The notes under the pieces were generated by a model. The model had not been told where the DNA came from, did not search any database, and saw nothing but the letters and a program-made list of their open reading frames with translations. This document shows, one piece after another, positions 11,040 through 56,150 of a DNA stretch of 64,000 nt. The stretch covers positions 298,636 through 362,635 of the forward strand of contig WELB01000032.1 of NCBI GenBank assembly GCA_009602725.1. The letters are read 5' to 3'. Both the position numbers and the translations under genes were made by a program. The stretch comes from Spirogloea muscicola. Lineage: Eukaryota; Streptophyta; Zygnematophyceae; Spirogloeales; Spirogloeaceae. Position 1 is the first letter of the stretch, and each line of letters opens with the position of its first letter.

Positions 11040-11440
11040 CGGCTAGAGAGATGCCGCTGCGGAGCTGCGAAACAGCGGCGGCGGCGCCGCTGCACCGCCG
11101 AGAGCGACTGATTCTGCCTCCGAGGCTCTCCGGGTGCGCGGGGCAGGGCTCGCGGAGGCTGGCAGCAGGTCAAAGCTGCGACGGCGCTGCAGGGCCGCGC
11201 ATCGCGGCAGCGGCGGGCTCAGAGGGCGAGCGGCGGGGGCCGGCGGGGAGGCGGCGGCGGAGAGCGCAGGGGCCCGGGGGNGGCGTCACAGCGCTGGGGG
11301 GGGGGGGGGGGCGCAACGGTGCGCAACGAAACACCCCACCCGCTCTGGCGTGTCGTCACGTGTCGTTCCCGTTGCTTTCTTCTCGCCAGGGGCGGCCCCA
11401 GCCTGGCCCTCATCAAGCACTGACCGGCCCTTCTCCACCG
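11040..11440. other. GC-rich region with poly-G and an ambiguous base
   Basis: Upstream flank of the acidic-protein gene, very GC-rich, with CGGCGGCGGCG triplets. A G-run with an N at 11,281 and 16-18 G residues near 11,297-11,314 probably marks a sequencing difficulty. Likely 5' UTR or promoter of the minus-strand gene. No coding exon recognised. Confidence 0.45.
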
Positions 11441-11760
11441 GGCGAGCCCTTCCCTTTGCCAGCCCCTCTTCTCTACGGGCGAGCACTTACTTTCTTATAC
11501 TTTGCTCATCCTTTTTTGGGCTGGCCTTTTCCAGCCAATATCCTCAATGGGCGAGCCCTTCTTGTCTCCGTAGCACTCCGGCTCCTTCAGACCTTGTCCA
11601 TTCCTTCTCTCTCTCTTTGGGCTGGCCTCTCCCAGCCACCAGTTAATCTGGCCGCGCTTGCTTCTCTGCGTTCGCTTGCCTGGACAGTGGATTGGAGAAA
11701 ACTGGCCACCATCCTATTTCATGCTCACCGCGCGCCTTCACTCCCCCTTTCAGCGCCGTG
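11440..11760 (+). mobile_element. Group of LINE tails
   Basis: Successive + strand tails: TCTACGGGCGAGCAC, then TTTTTTGGGCTGGCC followed by TTTTCCAGCC and CAATGGGCGAGCCC, then GGGCTGGCCTCTCCCAGCC. A CATGCTCACCGCGCGCC module lies at 11,720-11,742. No C-terminal coding piece is clear, so these are tail-only copies. Confidence 0.7.
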
Positions 11761-17657: not shown

Positions 17658-17849
<192 letters not shown>

Positions 17850-33547: not shown

Positions 33548-33665
33548 GTACATTTCCACAAATCTAGCTCACCTATTAACCTGCCTGTAACGAGACAACA
33601 GTTTGTAGATACTGAGATATCTGCACAGTAGACATTGTCCAGCTTATCTAGCAAAGCTGTTCTCA

Positions 33666-33772
33666 CTAGCAATACACAGTGCTTGCAAGTTATGCTGCTT
33701 GCAAGGGCCTCATGGGCCTCACTAGCAATACACAGTGCTTGCAAGCCATGCTGCTTGCAAGAACATCATGAG
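33666..33772. repeat. Imperfect two-copy tandem repeat (about 58 bp)
   Basis: CACTAGCAATACACAGTGCT then TGCAAG...ATGCTGCTTGCAAG occurs twice in succession just after the metallo-beta-lactamase-fold gene. Each unit itself contains the repeated word GCTTGCAAG. Confidence 0.85.
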
Positions 33773-36299: not shown

Positions 36300-37690
36300 A
36301 GGAGAGAGCGCGAGAAGGCGCGCGGGGCGCATCAAATGGAAGGGTGGCCGAGCCAAACCAACACATTGTTCAGGCAACAGCTAGTGCAAGTAGTGGGGCT
36401 ACCTGGAACGAAGGCCCTATGCCGAAGGGGCTAAGGTAACAGTGTGCGCAGAGAAGTGGCTCTCCCAATGGCGGCAAGGGCTGTGAGAAGCCAGCCCGAA
36501 AACAATTGACAAGGTTCGAAGGGGCCAAACTACGAGCTAAGCAGCGACTACGGGGCCTGGAGAGCAAGCGCGGCCAGATGATCTGGTGGCTGGGAGAGGC
36601 CAGCCCAAAAGAATGGACAAGGTCTGAAGGAGTCGGAGAAGTGGCTCTCCCAATGGGGGCAAGGGCTGTGAGAAGCCAGCCCGAAAAGAATTGACAAGGT
36701 TCGAAGGGGCCAAAGTACGAGCTAAGCAGCGACTGCGGGGCCTGAAGAGGCCATGGCAGAGCGGGGGAGGATGGACCACTCAGTAGTCACGAGTGAGGAG
36801 CCTCAAATCCGACAGACTAGCTGCCGGCAAATTATCCCCCTGACGAAAGCCGAAGCGCAGAGGAAAGAGAGGTGCCACTCCCAATGGGGGGCAAGGGCTG
36901 TGAAAGCCCAGCCCGAAGAAAAATTGACAAAAGGTTCGAAGGGGCCAAATGATGGAGGGGCCTGAAGATGCTATGTCGGAACGGGGGAGGATGGACCACT
37001 CAGTAATTACGAGTGAGGAGCCTCAAATCCGACAGACTAGCTGCCGGAAAACTATCCCCCTGACGAAAGCCGGAGGCCGCAGCGAGAGCACGGCCAGCAC
37101 GCAGATGCAAGGCGTGGGCCATGGACCGCTGAAGGGAGGAAAACCAGCCCACAGAAGAAATAAGTGGGGCGAGGAGGTCAGCTCTTCCGAGAGCTCACTT
37201 CCAAGAGGGGGCGGGGGCTGTGAATGGCCAGCCCAAAAAGAAGACGGCTCGCCCATAAGAAAGTGAATGGACAATGTCCGCAGGCATCAAAGGCCACAAA
37301 ATAGTGCCCGGAAAGACAAAACTACACACCAAGACACGAAATGATGCAGATGGATGCTTAGTAACCACGAGTGAGCAACAGCAAATCAGAATAACTCGAA
37401 GCAGGAAAAGCGGCACTCTGCCGAGACCCTGAGGCAGCAGCCATTGCGCGGCCGGCGGGCGTGTGGACCGCACGAGCCTGAGAGCGCTGGAGCGAGACCG
37501 CCAGTCGCATTCGAAAGACCTGAGCGAGGGAGCCGGCAGCATTGAAGCCTGGCGAACCCGGCCGCCGCTCGATGGCCCCGCCGGGCGAGCCGCTGGAGGA
37601 GATCCAACCAGCCCCTGCCGAAGGCCCCGTGAACGTCAACGGCCAGGGCCGCGAAGTCATGGCCTGGAGGGTGGTCAGCCTCGCGCTCTC
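36300..37690 (-). mobile_element. Nested minus-strand LINE 3' ends
   Basis: At least four reverse-orientation pieces are stacked: tails at 36,450-36,560, 36,590-36,660 and 36,640-36,840; a further tail plus C-terminal codons at 36,880-37,140; a GGGCTGTGAATGGCCAGCCC tail at 37,208-37,228; and a longer C-terminal piece at 37,350-37,660 (ALAVDVHGAFGRGWLDLLQR, FNAAGSLAQVFRMRLAVSLQ, ending DLLLLTRGY). Repeated breakpoints within tails show insertion into earlier copies. Confidence 0.85.
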
Positions 37691-37754: not shown

Positions 37755-40700
37755 CCTCCAAAACTCCGGGCCGCCGCCGGCGTCGCCGCCGGCGGCGGCC
37801 AGGGGTTCTGCCATCCCGCCTCTCGAACCGCCCAGCCTTCCGCAGTCGGCGCCATCGACGCCGCCCCCGTCACCGCCGCCTCCAACCCCGCCGAGCGAGC
37901 CGGCTTNCCCCCATCTCTTCCGCCGCCGTCACCCCCGCCTGCCGAGCCCGCGCGCGTGCTGTGCCCAACTTGTCCTCGGGATTTCGCAACTTGCTGCGGT
38001 GTCTCATTGCACCGGAAAGACTGCAAGGGGAATGCCAGCCCCACCGGCACGCCGCCCGCAGCGGCCGTAGCGGCTTGCAGCCCCATCGCCCCGGCCCTGG
38101 CATTTACTCAGGCGGAGCATATCACGGAGCATACCATGGAGGCCATTACTCTATCGCCTCCCGCCCGAGAGAAGCGTCGGGCATCTGCGCTATCGCCTCC
38201 ACCCCTGAGATGCGAGGGGACCCGCGAGGTGACCACGCTCGTCCATCCTCAGGGTACCATGCCCCATGTGCTCGGCCCTGACGTCCCTGAGTGCTTCTCC
38301 GGCGTCAGAGGTGCCGCAGCCGCCACCGCCCGCCGAGCCGTCGCCACAACTGCCGCTGTCGTCCCCACCGCCCCCATCTCCCCCGACGCCGCCTTCCCAA
38401 CCATCCGCCATCCCGCCTCTCAAACAGCCTAGCCCTCCAGTCGGCGCCATTGACGCCGCCCCTGTCGCCGCTGCCTCCAACTCCGCCGAGCGAGCCGGCT
38501 TCACTGCCGTCGCCCCCCCCTCACTCGCCCGAACCACTGCTGTGCCAGCACTGCCAGAGGACCTTCACCTCGCGGTCCGGCCAGGCCAACCACGAGCAAG
38601 CCTGCACGTGCAGTAACAGCCGTGCAGCACAGGCGCGGAGCGCAGCGGCAGCGCGTGGTCGTCGGGGCAGACCAGGCAGGACTCCCGCGCCGTCCCCGCC
38701 CACGCCCCATCACTGGCAGTGGCTGGCTGGCCTCGACCTGGCCGCAGTCCACCGCCAGGCGGCCCTGCCGCTCCTCCGCCACATTCCGCGCTGGGTGCGC
38801 CCGCACCTCCGCCGCGCGCTCCGCTCAGTGACGCAGCGGATTGGCGCGGACCACCGGGACGAGGCGGCGTGGAAGTTATTCCTCCTCTTTCCCAGCTGCT
38901 GCTTGGGCGTGCCTCTCCCGACAGCCGCAGGCAGGGCCAGCAGCCCATGCTGGAGCGCGTCCAGTTGTTTGAGAGCGGGCACTGGGAGGAGCTTCTGGCA
39001 TCATGACGCCGCCGTGGCAGCCTCTGCGGCCTACCGTGGTGGCACAGGGACAGCGCCCGACAGGGCCGCCTGCGTCCGCCGGGCACTTCGCTTCGGCCAC
39101 GCGGGTGAGCTTTCCAGGGCTGTGCAGGCCCTCGACGATGCTATGCAGGCGCCAACCAATACGGCGACTCGGGCGGCCCTGGACTCCCTGCACCCCCCGG
39201 CGAGCTCCCCCCTGCCACCGTGGTTGGCCGCCTTCGCACCGCCAGAGGAGGTGGTCTTGGATGCCAACGCCCTCAAAAAGGCTTTGCAGACCAGCCGTCG
39301 CGCAGCCGCCGGCGGCCCCTCCCGCATGCTTACTGAGCACCTGCGGGAGATCTTCATCGAGGGAGAGGCTGCGGACTTCAACGCGCTGCTGCAGATCTGC
39401 CAGCATCTGGCCCGGGACAATGTGCCGGTCGGCATCCGCGGCGTACTGTGCACGAGCACGCTGCTCGCCCTCGACAAGCCGAGCGGGGGAGTCAGGCCCA
39501 TTGCCATTGGGGAGGTCCTCTACCGCCTGGTGAGCCGCGTTCTCTGGCAGCAGCATGCGGGGCCGGCGCAGGTGCACCTGCCGCCACATCAATATGGCGC
39601 GGGGCTGCGGAGTGGGGGCGAGGCCGTGGTCCACGGGGTCCGTGCAACCTTGGACCAACACCCGGGGTGGCTGGTACTGGCCGTCGACGCAAAAAATGCG
39701 TTCAACACCGTGGAGCGCGCCTGCATTGCAGAGGAGCTCCGGGCCGCCTTCCCCTCCCTGGTACCCTTTTTCCGCTTGGGGTACGGTCAGCCCAGCGACC
39801 TCCTCTGGAGGATGGGGGGTGACCAAGTGGAGGTCCTGCAGTCCCAAGCGGGCACGCGGCAAGGGGACCCCCTCGCCGGCTTCTTCTTTGCGCTCGCTCA
39901 CCACCAGCTCTGCAGGCTACCGCGGCGGCACATCCAGGGGTCCTACTGCCCACCTTCGCTGACGACACCACCATGGTTGGCCCTCCGGAAGACGTGGCGG
40001 CAGCCTTCGTCACCTTCAAGCAGCAGTTGGCCACCCTCGGCCTGTCCACCCGGGCGTCAAAGTGCGCAGCTTGGTCCCCCTGCGGCCTCCCATCCACCCT
40101 GGCGCTGCCCCCCGGATGCCTGACTCCTGCAGACGGCTTCACCCTCCTGGGGTCCCCATCTGGGCGCCGTCCTTCGTGGAGGGGCAGCCGCGAGCCCGCC
40201 TCGAGGAGCACCTCCAGCCTGCGGCCCGGCTCCCCGAGCTGCAGGATATGCAGCTGGCACTGGCCATGTTGACCAAGGCCATTGCGTAGAGACCCCAGTA
40301 TCTGACGCGGGCCACCCCGCCGTCCCCAGGGGCGCTGGCGGCGCACGCGGATTTTGACGCAGGCATGGTGACGAGCCTGGCGGCCCTGGTCCGCCACCAG
40401 GGCTTCCCCCAGTCGCCTGCCGCTCTTTATAAGGCGACGCTACCCCTCAGTTACGGCGGTTTCAGTTTGCGCCCGCTCGTCCATTCCTGCCGGGCGGCGT
40501 ACCTCAGCAGCTGGGCGCAGACAGCCGCCTCCGTGGCCCAGCGCTTCTTGGTCCACGGCCGGCGTGCGCTGGAGCAGGCGGTGGTGGAGGTAGAATCGGG
40601 TGTGCTGCCTTTCCAGGCGTCGCTACGCTCCTCCCACCAGGAGCTGCTCGCGACGCACCTGGACCAGGCGGGCCAGGCGGTCTCCTTTGCGCACCTCGCG

Positions 40701-41775
40701 CACACCGCCGACCTGCGCGTCCAAGCGCGCTTCGCAGCCGGACGGACAAGGCCGCCTTCACCACCGCCTTGCTGCAGCTCCCGGAGGCGGACCTGCGCGG
40801 GCGCGCGACACTCCACTTGGCGTCTTCCCCAGGGGCCGCGGCGTGGCTCCAGGCCCTCCTCCTCAACGACGCCCTCACTCTCTGACGAGGTATTTCGCAG
40901 TGCCGTCCACCGGCTCCTGGGCCTGCTGCCGCCATGCCTCCAGGGTGTGCGTCAGTGCGAATGTGGCGAGCGAGGTGCCGAGCCTGGGGAGCTGGCCGCT
41001 TATGTTCTGCGCTGTTCCCACGGCGGAGAGCGGACAACGGCCCACGACCGCCTTCTGGATGCGATGCATGGCATCCTGGTGGAGGCTGGCTTCTCGGTGG
41101 CAGCGGAGAACTCCGCCGTCATGCCGCTCCAGCAAAGGGCCGACGGTCTCCACGCACGTCGTGTAGACCTTGTGGCCACCCCACAAGCCGGCGGGCCACG
41201 TCTTATCCTGGACGTGGTGACCACAGACGCACACGACCGCTCACACCCAGCCCAATGTGCCATCAAGGCTGGGTATGCGGTCGCCTGCGCCGCTCGAGCT
41301 AAGGAGCTCATATATGCTGATCATCCGCGGGAAGACGAGTTCTTCCCGCTGGCTATCGACACGCATGGGGCATTGGGCGCGCTCGGTTGCTCGAGCTGCT
41401 CAACCAGCTCGCCCGCCACGCCATCGTCCGCCGCTTCCATGGGGAGCCAGTGGGCTTTCCTGCAGCCGGGTCGCTAGCGCAGGTGTACCGGATGCGCTTG
41501 GCCGTCTCGCTGCAGAGGTCTATGGCCCGCGCGCTGCACCTGCGTGCCGGCAGAGCCCTCGCTGCTGCCTCTGGCTCTGGCCAGGGGACCCACTTCCAGG
41601 AGCCTAGCTTCTCTGACCTGAGGCTGCTTAGCAGGGGTTACTGAGTAATACGTAGCTGCTGTATTTCTTGTTGTGCTTGTTTTTCTTAGCGCTTCCCCTG
41701 GCCCCCTTCTCGTACTTCGTTCCTTCCTTTTTGGGCTGGCTTTTCCAGCCCCTATCCTCGATGGGCGAGCCCTTC
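37700..41775 (+). mobile_element. Near full-length LINE with CCHC fingers, RT and nuclease-like domain
   Basis: The 5' edge is at a GCC triplet run (37,707-37,753). Two CCHC fingers follow: CPTCPRDFATCC...H...C near 37,962 and CQHCQRTFTSRS...H...C near 38,542. The RT domain spans about 39,250-40,110 (LLALDKPSGGVRPIAIGEVL, AVDAKNAFNTV, GTRQGDPLAGFFFALA, FADD at about 39,955). Downstream lie CECGERG...H...RCSHGGERTTAH (zinc knuckle, about 40,960) and a PD-(D/E)XK-like block GGPRLILDVVTTD (about 41,187). The C-terminus SFSDLRLLSRGY stops at 41,644. The tail has GGGCTGGCTTTTCCAGCCC and GGGCGAGCCC. The copy is inactive: frame changes near 38,930/39,000, 39,950, 40,150, 40,740, 40,880 and 41,390, and an in-frame TAG at 40,287. 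The layout fits site-preferring LINEs with restriction-like nuclease (R2/CRE/NeSL-like); clade is not certain. Confidence 0.9.
37811..38560 (+). repeat. Tandem duplication of the LINE's finger module (about 597-bp period)
   Basis: CCATCCCGCCTCTC followed by a Pro-coding stretch (GTCGGCGCCAT, GACGCCGCCCC, GAGCGAGCCGGCTT) occurs at 37,811 and again at 38,408, each leading to a CCHC finger about 150 bases later. The two fingers therefore probably arose by duplication of one module. An N sits at 37,907 in unit 1. Confidence 0.75.
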
Positions 41776-41945
41776 CTTCGGTCAGCGTACTTGCGCTCCT
41801 TACTCCGAGCCGCCAAAGCGACCGCTTGCCCAGCGAGCGTCGCCGACTTTGCGGGGTTGGCGGAGTCGTCGCAATCTGCAGTCACCACATCTGCGACGAT
41901 ACGCGGACCTCCGCGTCCGAAGGTCCGAAGGGGCCGAAAAGTGCT
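41776..41945 (-). mobile_element. Older opposite-strand LINE nuclease-domain fragment
   Basis: Minus-strand frame reads GRGGPRIVADVVTADCDDSA then KSATLAGQAVALAARSKERKY. It aligns with GGPRLILDVVTTDAHDRSHP and YAVACAARAKELIY of the long LINE but is clearly diverged. The + strand element's tail ends directly against it, showing that the younger copy inserted into an older, oppositely oriented copy. Confidence 0.75.
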
Positions 41946-42629: not shown

Positions 42630-43309
42630 CCCTGGCCCCTTCGTCGCGTGGACCTTGTGGCCACCCCACCGGCAGGCGGGCCACGTCTTCTCCTGGACGT
42701 GGTGACCACCGACTCCTATGACCGCTGCCATCCAACCCAGTGTGTCTGGGCCAGCCCCTCTTTTCTATGGGCGCGCTTTTCTTCTTCTAGTGTGCCACCA
42801 AAGCTGGGTATGCGGTAGCCTGCGCAGCTCGGGCCAAGGAGCTAAAATACGCAGATCACCCGCGGAAGACGAGTTCTTCCCGCTCGCCATCGATACGCAC
42901 GGGGCGCTGGGCGCTCGGTGGTGGGCGCTCGGTGGCTCGAGCTGCTCAACCAGCTCTCTCGTCACGCCATTGCCCGCCGCTTCCATGGGGAGCCGGTGGA
43001 CTCCCATGCAGCAGGCTCGCTAGCGCAGGTGTACCGCATGCGCTTGGCCGTCTCGCTGCAGAGGTCTATGGCCCGCGCGCTGCACCTGCGTGCAGGCAGA
43101 GCCCTCGCTGCTGCCTCCTGGCTCTGGCCAGGGGACCCGCTTCCAGGAACCCAGTCTCTCTGACCTGAGGCTGCTTAGCAGGGGTTACTGAGTGCTTCGT
43201 AGCTGCTTCGCTTCTTTTCTGTGCTTGTTGTTCTTCGTACTTCCCCAGGCCCCTTCTCGTCCTTTGTACATTCTTTCTGGGCTGGCTTTTTCCAGCCCCT
43301 ATCCTCAAT
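42630..43309 (+). mobile_element. 5'-truncated LINE copy, nuclease domain to tail
   Basis: Begins within the nuclease-like domain (VDLVATPPAGGPRLLLDVVT) and continues through KELKYADHPRE, a short duplication of GCGCTCGGTGG near 42,912, and the C-terminus to a stop at 43,187-43,189. It carries two tail-only insertions, at 42,745-42,788 and 43,310-43,374. Close in sequence to the long element at 37,700, so from the same subfamily. Confidence 0.85.
42745..42788 (+). mobile_element. 44-base tail-only insertion with target duplication
   Basis: The insert TCTGGGCCAGCC... to ...GGGCGCGCTTTTCTTCTTCT interrupts the nuclease-domain codons. AGTGTG at 42,739-42,744 is repeated at 42,789-42,794. Removing it restores alignment to the long element. 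It contains only the 3' arm of hairpin 1, hairpin 2 and the CTT tail. Confidence 0.85.
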
Positions 43310-43374
43310 ACCTTGTCAATTCTTTTCGGGCTAGCTTCTCACAGCCCTTGCCCCCATTGGGAGAGCCACTTCTT
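43310..43374 (+). mobile_element. 65-base tail-only insertion with 11-bp target duplication
   Basis: A subfamily A tail (ACCTTGTCAATTC, GGGCTAGCTTCTCACAGCCC, TTGGGAGAGCCACTTCTT) splits the subfamily B tail of the copy ending at 43,309. CTATCCTCAAT at 43,299-43,309 is repeated at 43,375-43,385. Both hairpins are present and no coding sequence remains. Confidence 0.85.
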
Positions 43375-43625
43375 CTATCCTCAATGGGCGAGCCCTTCTC
43401 TTTATCCTCAATGGGCGAGCCCTTCTCTCACTCGTAACTACTGAGTGGTCCATCCTCCCCCGTTCTGACATAGCATCTTCAGGCCCTTTAGTAGCTGCTT
43501 AGCGCTTTTTAGGCCCCTCCATAATTTGGCCCCTTCGAACCTTTTGTCAATTCTTTTTCGGGCTGGCTTTTCACAGCCCTTGCGCCCATTGAGAGTGCCA
43601 CTATTCTCTCTTTCGAGGCTGGCCT
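43375..43625 (+). mobile_element. Further tail pieces, one with duplicated end
   Basis: TATCCTCAATGGGCGAGCCC plus TTCTCT occurs twice in a row (43,376-43,401 and 43,403-43,428), then a C-terminal stub CTCGTAACTACTGA and a subfamily A tail ending at about 43,612 (TTGAGAGTGCCACTATTCTC). Confidence 0.75.
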
Positions 43626-47397: not shown

Positions 47398-50087
<2,690 letters not shown>

Positions 50088-55539: not shown

Positions 55540-56150
55540 TTTAGAAGAAGTGGCTCTCCCAATGGGGGCAAGGGCTGTGAGAAGCCAGCCCGAAAAGAAT
55601 TGACAAGGTTCGAAGGGGCCAATAGCTGTGAGAAGCCAGCCCGAAAAGAATTGACAAGGTTCGAAGGGGCCAATAGTTTGGCCCCTTCGAATCGGGAGAG
55701 CCAGTTCTTCTTCTTCTTTCTTCTTCTTCTTCTTTGAGGCGAGTGAGGCTTCCTCTCGCTGCGGCCTCCGGCTTTCGTCAGGGGGATAGTTTACCGGCAG
55801 CTAGTCTGTCGGATGTGAGGCTCCTCACTCGTAACTACTAAGCGGTCCATCCTCCCCCGTTCTGCCATAGCCTCGTCAGGCCCCGCAGTCGCTGCTTAGC
55901 TCGTAGTTTGGCCCCTTCGAACCTTGTCAATTATTTTCGGGCTGGCTTCTCACAGCCCTTGCCCCCATTGGGAGAGCCACTTCTTCCTCTCTTCGCAGGA
56001 TTCTCGCTTCTTCGACACGCTACCTTGGCTGCTAGCTTCCACAGCTGTTTACTTTTCTTGCATTGAGACCCTTCGGACGTTGACCACTCTTTTCGGGCTG
56101 CCCTTGTTTGCGGAAAAGAGAGAAAGCTCTTCAGCTTTGCTATGCCTCCC
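55540..56150. mobile_element. Head-to-head LINE tails forming a palindromic junction
   Basis: Two minus-strand tail copies in direct repeat (55,545-55,622 and 55,626-55,673) meet a + strand copy at 55,678. TTCGAAGGGGCCAA and its exact reverse complement flank a TAGT spacer (55,660-55,691). The + strand tail ends in a long CTT/TTC run (55,701-55,733). A further + strand C-terminal piece and tail follow at 55,740-55,990. Confidence 0.85.

Follow-up and report, generated by a model that had tools for sequence, protein, structure and literature searches.

Two short insertions within a single LINE copy of Spirogloea muscicola are confirmed as genuine 5'-truncated copies of LINE 3' ends, in a window of 64,000 nucleotides. 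Both very probably arose by target-primed reverse transcription (TPRT) in which synthesis stopped early. The finding is general beyond these two inserts, while the underlying process, LINE 5' truncation by TPRT, is already known.

Two inserts in an A-family LINE copy

Insert 1 (42,745–42,788, plus strand) consists of 44 nt of a C-family LINE 3' end, and is flanked on the same strand by the target duplication AGTGTG at 42,739–42,744 and 42,789–42,794. Insert 2 (43,310–43,374, plus strand) consists of 65 nt of a B-family LINE 3' end, and its duplication, CTATCCTCAAT, is present on the plus strand at 43,299–43,309, within an A-family tail, and at 43,375–43,385. The coordinates, the lengths of 44 and 65 nt and the flanking repeats of 6 and 11 bp were exactly as given in the original prediction. 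Both inserts lie in the 3' portion of one A-family LINE copy (42,642–43,412, plus strand, ends approximate), delimited by self-alignment to 41,157–41,759, and with insert 2 a B tail has integrated into a tail of another family, namely that of the host copy. The excision of the inserts had been claimed to restore the host alignment, and this holds for both: without insert 1 and one AGTGTG, global alignment with the copy at 41,206–41,325 scored 156 instead of 107, and without insert 2 and one CTATCCTCAAT, alignment with the A-family tail at 41,715–41,790 scored 79 instead of 9. At random positions in the 40–46 kb region, a perfect flanking repeat of the same length and spacing occurs at a frequency of about 8e-4 (6 bp) or 1e-4 (11 bp). 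Elsewhere in the window, a tail at 159–196 is identical to insert 1 at 37 of 38 bases, and the B-family tail at 55,921–55,985 to insert 2 at 63 of 65 bases; 55,753–55,986 (plus strand) is occupied by a B-family copy, about 230 nt long, whose duplication is CTTCCTCTC.

Both inserts had been described as only the last hairpin or hairpins and the CTT end. They are indeed 3'-end pieces, but insert 1 starts within the hairpin and retains the 3' arm alone, without the 5' arm. The 3' boundary of the element, previously regarded as exactly fixed, can be placed no more precisely than a few bases, given that tail ends are variable and overlap with targets starting in CT. Directly after insert 2, a 27-nt piece of A tail is tandemly repeated (43,358–43,429), which may represent another stub or have arisen by plain duplication.

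The hairpin GGGCTG/CAGCCC is common to all six tail types in an alignment of 24 window tails. Its columns are paired in 95.8% of cells, yet they are near-invariant and too constant for covariation. For the outer stem covariation gave no support, and the fold z-scores by tail type were -3.2 (A), -4.4 (C), -2.1 (E), -1.3 (F), -0.8 (B) and -0.5 (D). Tails of differing families also occur in clusters, several of them in a few hundred bases, mainly at 11,440–11,660 and 36,450–37,250. The window further contains two perfect homopolymers in a GC-rich context, 113 T (17,659–17,771) and 121 A (49,966–50,086), possibly retrocopy poly-A or an assembly effect, and nearly two tandem copies, 90% alike, of a 56-bp unit at 33,662–33,770.

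Abundance, length and target duplications of tail copies

A scan of the genome (153 Mb, 471 contigs) for the 3' cores, with at most two mismatches, detected 2,790 places for family A, 3,964 for B, 1,281 for C and 1,469 for D, summing to 9,504 near-identical places, a lower bound in which diverged copies are missed, with 0 in backwards-read control patterns. The exact reverse transcriptase (RT) motif G-T-R-Q-G-D-P, in the codon choices of the pattern, was present at 359 places and 1 in the control, a count to which other RT families may contribute and from which diverged copies are absent. A B segment located 577 nt upstream of the end was found at 123 places with at most three mismatches, diverged subfamilies being missed. 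Since the tail cores far outnumber both the RT motif and the upstream B segment, most tail copies look like 3' stubs. The original prediction had named, as the outcome that would speak against it, few or no tail-only copies, or flanks not duplicated elsewhere; tail-only copies are instead common in the genome sample, and they carry duplications.

For the length of the copies, an unbiased sample was taken by the exact 3' core alone, in contig order (B, L031–L060 and L111–L130; A, L061–L090; C, L091–L110), and 84 of the 100 sampled loci yielded an index copy (43 B, 24 A, 17 C). The 5' extent was obtained by alignment to other copies under a single uniform rule at three thresholds. The 5' ends of the 84 index copies form an unbroken range, 31 nt at the shortest and at least 700 nt at the longest, extents above about 600 nt being lower bounds with few long partners, and neither a common 5' end nor a fixed 5' head was seen. 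Together with this variable 5' truncation, the 84 copies display the constant 3' end that characterizes LINEs and TPRT. Four short A 'copies' (L068, L078, L086 and L089) were ruled out as genuine stubs, as each adjoins the end of another tail; they are right halves of split A tails, and L085 may be another. Median length was 131.5–136 nt across the three thresholds, and 141 nt without the four remnants. Index copies of at most 66 nt numbered 15–17 of 84 (13 of 80 without remnants) and those of at most 50 nt 7–9 of 84 (5 of 80). Early stopping had been said to occur often within 50 bases; such short copies do exist, but in view of these counts 'often' is too strong.

At the middle threshold, the fraction of copies surviving was 0.89 at 50 nt, 0.80 at 66, 0.58 at 100, 0.35 at 200, 0.14 at 400 and 0.09 at 600. 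Stops per 100 nt amounted to 0.54–0.63 between 30 and 66 nt for all 84 copies (0.48 without remnants) and to 0.65–0.72 between 66 and 300 nt, the middle threshold giving 0.63 and 0.65. The rate is uneven at this middle threshold, with 0.94 per 100 nt at 66–100 nt, about 0.5–0.6 at 100–300 nt and 0.27 at 300–600 nt (8 events), and 8 of the 17 C index copies form a local cluster at 69–98 nt. No bulge of copy number was observed at tail length among the 84 index copies. Stopping is thus no more frequent below 66 nt than at 66–300 nt, which places the tail-only copies at the lower end of a single truncation curve.

Target duplications were scored when the upstream repeat ended no more than 8 bp from the homology boundary and the downstream repeat began in the first 13 positions counted from two bases before the end of the tail motif; without the boundary requirement, the background of the test is high. 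Of 317 tails, 304 were testable, under two boundary rules (first and uniform) and with permuted flanks and a shifted boundary as controls. Target-site duplication, a further hallmark of LINEs and TPRT, was evident against control rates of about 2%. Over all lengths, duplications of at least 8 nt were present in 57 of 304 copies by the first rule (controls: permuted 2.0%, shifted 1.9%) and in 66 of 304 by the uniform rule (2.3% and 2.1%). Among copies of at most 80 nt, the values were 17 of 98 by the first rule (2.1% and 1.5%) and 23 of 126 by the uniform rule (3.4% and 2.4%), and for those of at most 66 nt, 15 of 83 by the uniform rule (3.1% and 2.1%). Loci L001–L030 are biased, having been chosen for their similarity to insert 2; without them, 40 of 190 copies of all lengths (2.1% and 2.2%) and 14 of 82 of at most 80 nt (2.8% and 2.1%) carried a duplication. 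Relative to the two controls, duplications are enriched about 9- to 10-fold when all lengths are pooled; among copies of at most 80 nt the enrichment is 5- to 8-fold. Below 50 nt, 6 of 31 copies qualified by the first rule, one of them being a low-complexity repeat. Approximately 80% of copies, short or long, have no exact duplication of at least 8 nt at the estimated boundary, which could be explained by decay, short duplications, boundary error or split-tail remnants. Some real duplications are missed by the test because the boundary is blurred, as in L031 and L046, whose 8- and 10-bp repeats were not credited by the first rule; L031 measures 56 nt by the uniform rule and near 36 nt by its duplication.

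Landing sites and the protein of the A-family element

The 57 duplication-bearing sites, of which about 6 are expected by chance from the controls, are all distinct, and 54 of them have repeats of 8–11 bp. The target base at position -1 is C in 36 of 57 (binomial p 2e-7), at position 0 it is C or T in 54 of 57 (p 4e-12) and at +1 it is T in 37 of 57 (p 2e-11), where the bases inside the repeat may be inflated by overlap with the CTT of the tail and the C ahead of the repeat is immune to this effect. The resulting common target motif, C|YTT, agrees with the CTT end of the tail. Without L001–L030, 8 of 36 sites, some of which touch a tail only via the flank, lie in or near an existing tail, compared with 26 of 600 random window positions (Fisher p 3e-4); landing in existing tails is about five times more frequent than at random positions.

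A B element within an A tail at one identical base position was found 15 times genome-wide with at most two mismatches, insert 2 included, while simple arithmetic on the copy numbers predicts about 0.04 such coincidences. Where measured by the first boundary rule (L002, L005, L006, L007 and L012), the B parts at this position vary in length. Given these differing lengths and the low expectation, the 15 cases look like separate, independent events. Besides, 4 of the 24 A index copies point to a second hotspot in the A tail: each is the right-hand remainder of a tail that a B or C tail interrupted at an almost identical base. As for the CTATCCTCAATGGGCGAG that recurs downstream, the end of the B element was considered and ruled out; it is the target, as shown by the left half of the A tail directly upstream of the L005, L008 and L012 copies.

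Regarding the orientation of neighbouring tails, 23 of 233 pairs in 90 loci and the window face each other at less than 150 bp, versus 1 that faces outward. Inverted short tail pieces stand directly at the 5' junction of a tail in L038 (near 1500, minus strand) and L026 (near 1618, minus strand), where double priming or nested insertion may have occurred; a head-to-head form of double priming was set aside for L038, as outward-facing pairs at less than 150 bp number just 1 against 23 inward.

The window also holds a longer, decayed A-family LINE (all parts on the plus strand), composed of an ORF with an RT domain at 38,291–40,123 (Pfam RVT_1, E 1.7e-8), a C-terminal ORF piece with a cysteine knuckle and an endonuclease-like end at 40,365–41,477, and an A-family tail at 41,733–41,775. 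In the A family, the one examined for RT ORFs, such an ORF thus lies upstream of the common 3' end (RVT_1 at 38,291–40,123, A tail from 41,733). Ranked by E-value, the best solved relative of this ORF is an R2 protein (E 6.9e-5), followed by matches at E 0.05 or worse, and the best protein match of the RT has 47% identity across 43% of the query and bears a gene name in the style used for the streptophyte alga Spirogloea. The C-terminal piece shares 27% identity over 299 alignment columns with the homologue P0004, an RT protein, and had no relative among solved structures. The decayed copy reads C.C...RC and then RRVDL...LILDV, where P0004 has RRPDL...MLVDV, a clean RPD...D stretch. We take the (K/R)PD...D motif to be the signature of a restriction-like endonuclease, and this motif and one distant homologue suggest a putative domain of that type at the C-terminal end. 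On the N-terminal side, protein P0001 carries CQHCQRTF...H....C, a candidate C2H2 zinc finger, which zinc finger chains match weakly (E 0.19 and 0.36). From its sequence, the A-family element looks R2-like.

Origin of the short copies and comparison with known LINEs

We propose that an R2-like RT with a putative C-terminal restriction-like endonuclease would nick a loose C|YTT site, leaving a free bottom-strand end that would read ...RAG/AAG. This end would anneal to the CUU terminus of the RNA tail and serve as the primer for cDNA synthesis, which would break off early, with a more or less constant probability of about 0.65% per nt over 66–300 nt. The second strand would then be cut, mostly 8–11 bp away, and the stub sealed in. 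Halts in the first 30–66 nt would give rise to tail-only copies, and C|YTT-like sites inside the tails would allow repeated landing on tails. The original suggestion of TPRT with early stopping is well supported by the duplications of short copies, by the common 3' and free 5' ends, and by the microhomology between target and tail. More tentatively, and with some doubt, this could be an R2-like LINE group in which the RT quits with that nearly uniform probability of about 0.65% per nt, while the tails both prime on and carry C|YTT, accreting on one another and filling the genome with thousands of stubs.

The shortness itself could have another cause if the RNA templates were mostly short 3' fragments already, by decay or processing, and were copied to their end without the enzyme being responsible. 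DNA reveals the end product alone, and random RNA cleavage would likewise give a smooth length curve. On the other hand, some duplication-bearing copies (insert 1 and copies of 29–44 nt) do not have the 5' arm of the hairpin, and should recognition depend on the hairpin, as it does in stringent-type LINEs, the RNA of these arm-less copies exceeded the copy in length; we regard fragmented templates as rather unlikely.

The alternative contained in the original prediction, a SINE-like parasite made of the tail alone and expressed as a short transcript of its own, is highly improbable. It would fit the identical layout of the six tail types and the 15–17 of 84 index copies of at most 66 nt (13 of 80 without remnants), but no common 5' end was seen among the copies, their stop rate at 30–66 nt (0.54–0.63, or 0.48) does not exceed that at 66–300 nt (0.65–0.72), leaving no tail-only excess over the truncation curve, and no tRNA gene was found in the window. 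That chance repeats, tandem duplication or assembly errors mimic insertions is hardly credible: although many duplications are short and CT-rich, and the 27-nt A-tail piece after insert 2 is in tandem, the families of the two inserts comprise thousands of dispersed copies, with 0 in the reversed controls, and duplications of at least 8 nt exceed both controls about 9- to 10-fold (5- to 8-fold at 80 nt or less).

Early-terminated TPRT can be compared with several known systems. Among solved structures, the RT of the A-family LINE is nearest to that of R2, an element that targets rDNA. In stringent-type LINEs the tail hairpin is needed for RT recognition, and copies of ZfL2 and UnaL2 are far longer than the present stubs. 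Like the group described here, these zebrafish (ZfL2) and eel (UnaL2) elements share a tail formed by a 3' hairpin, lack poly-A and show 5' truncation (PMC4176376, PMC5135761). They differ from the present group, which appears R2-like, carries a putative restriction-like endonuclease and ends in CTT. CR1 elements have an apurinic-type endonuclease and an average length of a few hundred bp, compared with the median of about 130 nt here. For chicken CR1, about 26,650 copies are reported, with a full length of about 4.5 kb and only six identified full-length copies with intact promoters (PMC2734521). As in the present families, most of its copies, which number in the tens of thousands, are 5'-truncated and have no poly-A tail, whereas they end in 8-bp repeats (PMC2734521). 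Utopia is described as having N-terminal zinc fingers, an RT and a C-terminal zinc finger, with a target specificity that is weakened in crocodilians (PMC4640811). Utopia targets U2 genes, while insertion here is dispersed, at a loose C|YTT and with duplications of mostly 8–11 bp; judged from copies across many contigs with varied flanks, there is no site-specific insertion of the R2 or Utopia kind.

The stubs are an extreme form of a known process, and among open-licence PMC papers we recognised none that describes, in its title or the start of its abstract, such stubs in this kind of element. What is notable is their extreme shortness, the number of families per genome, the C|YTT rule and the landing in tails, with the scale and the self-made landing sites as the surprise. 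The stubs are a natural record of the stop points of cDNA synthesis and of the positions of the first nick, and with thousands of copies, processivity, nick-site choice, the pairing of primer and RNA, and the second-strand offset could be deduced purely from sequence. A self-made landing site would account for the growth of tail arrays. If the same is true for dispersed R2-like LINEs, annotation that discards matches shorter than 80–100 nt would miss many insertions.
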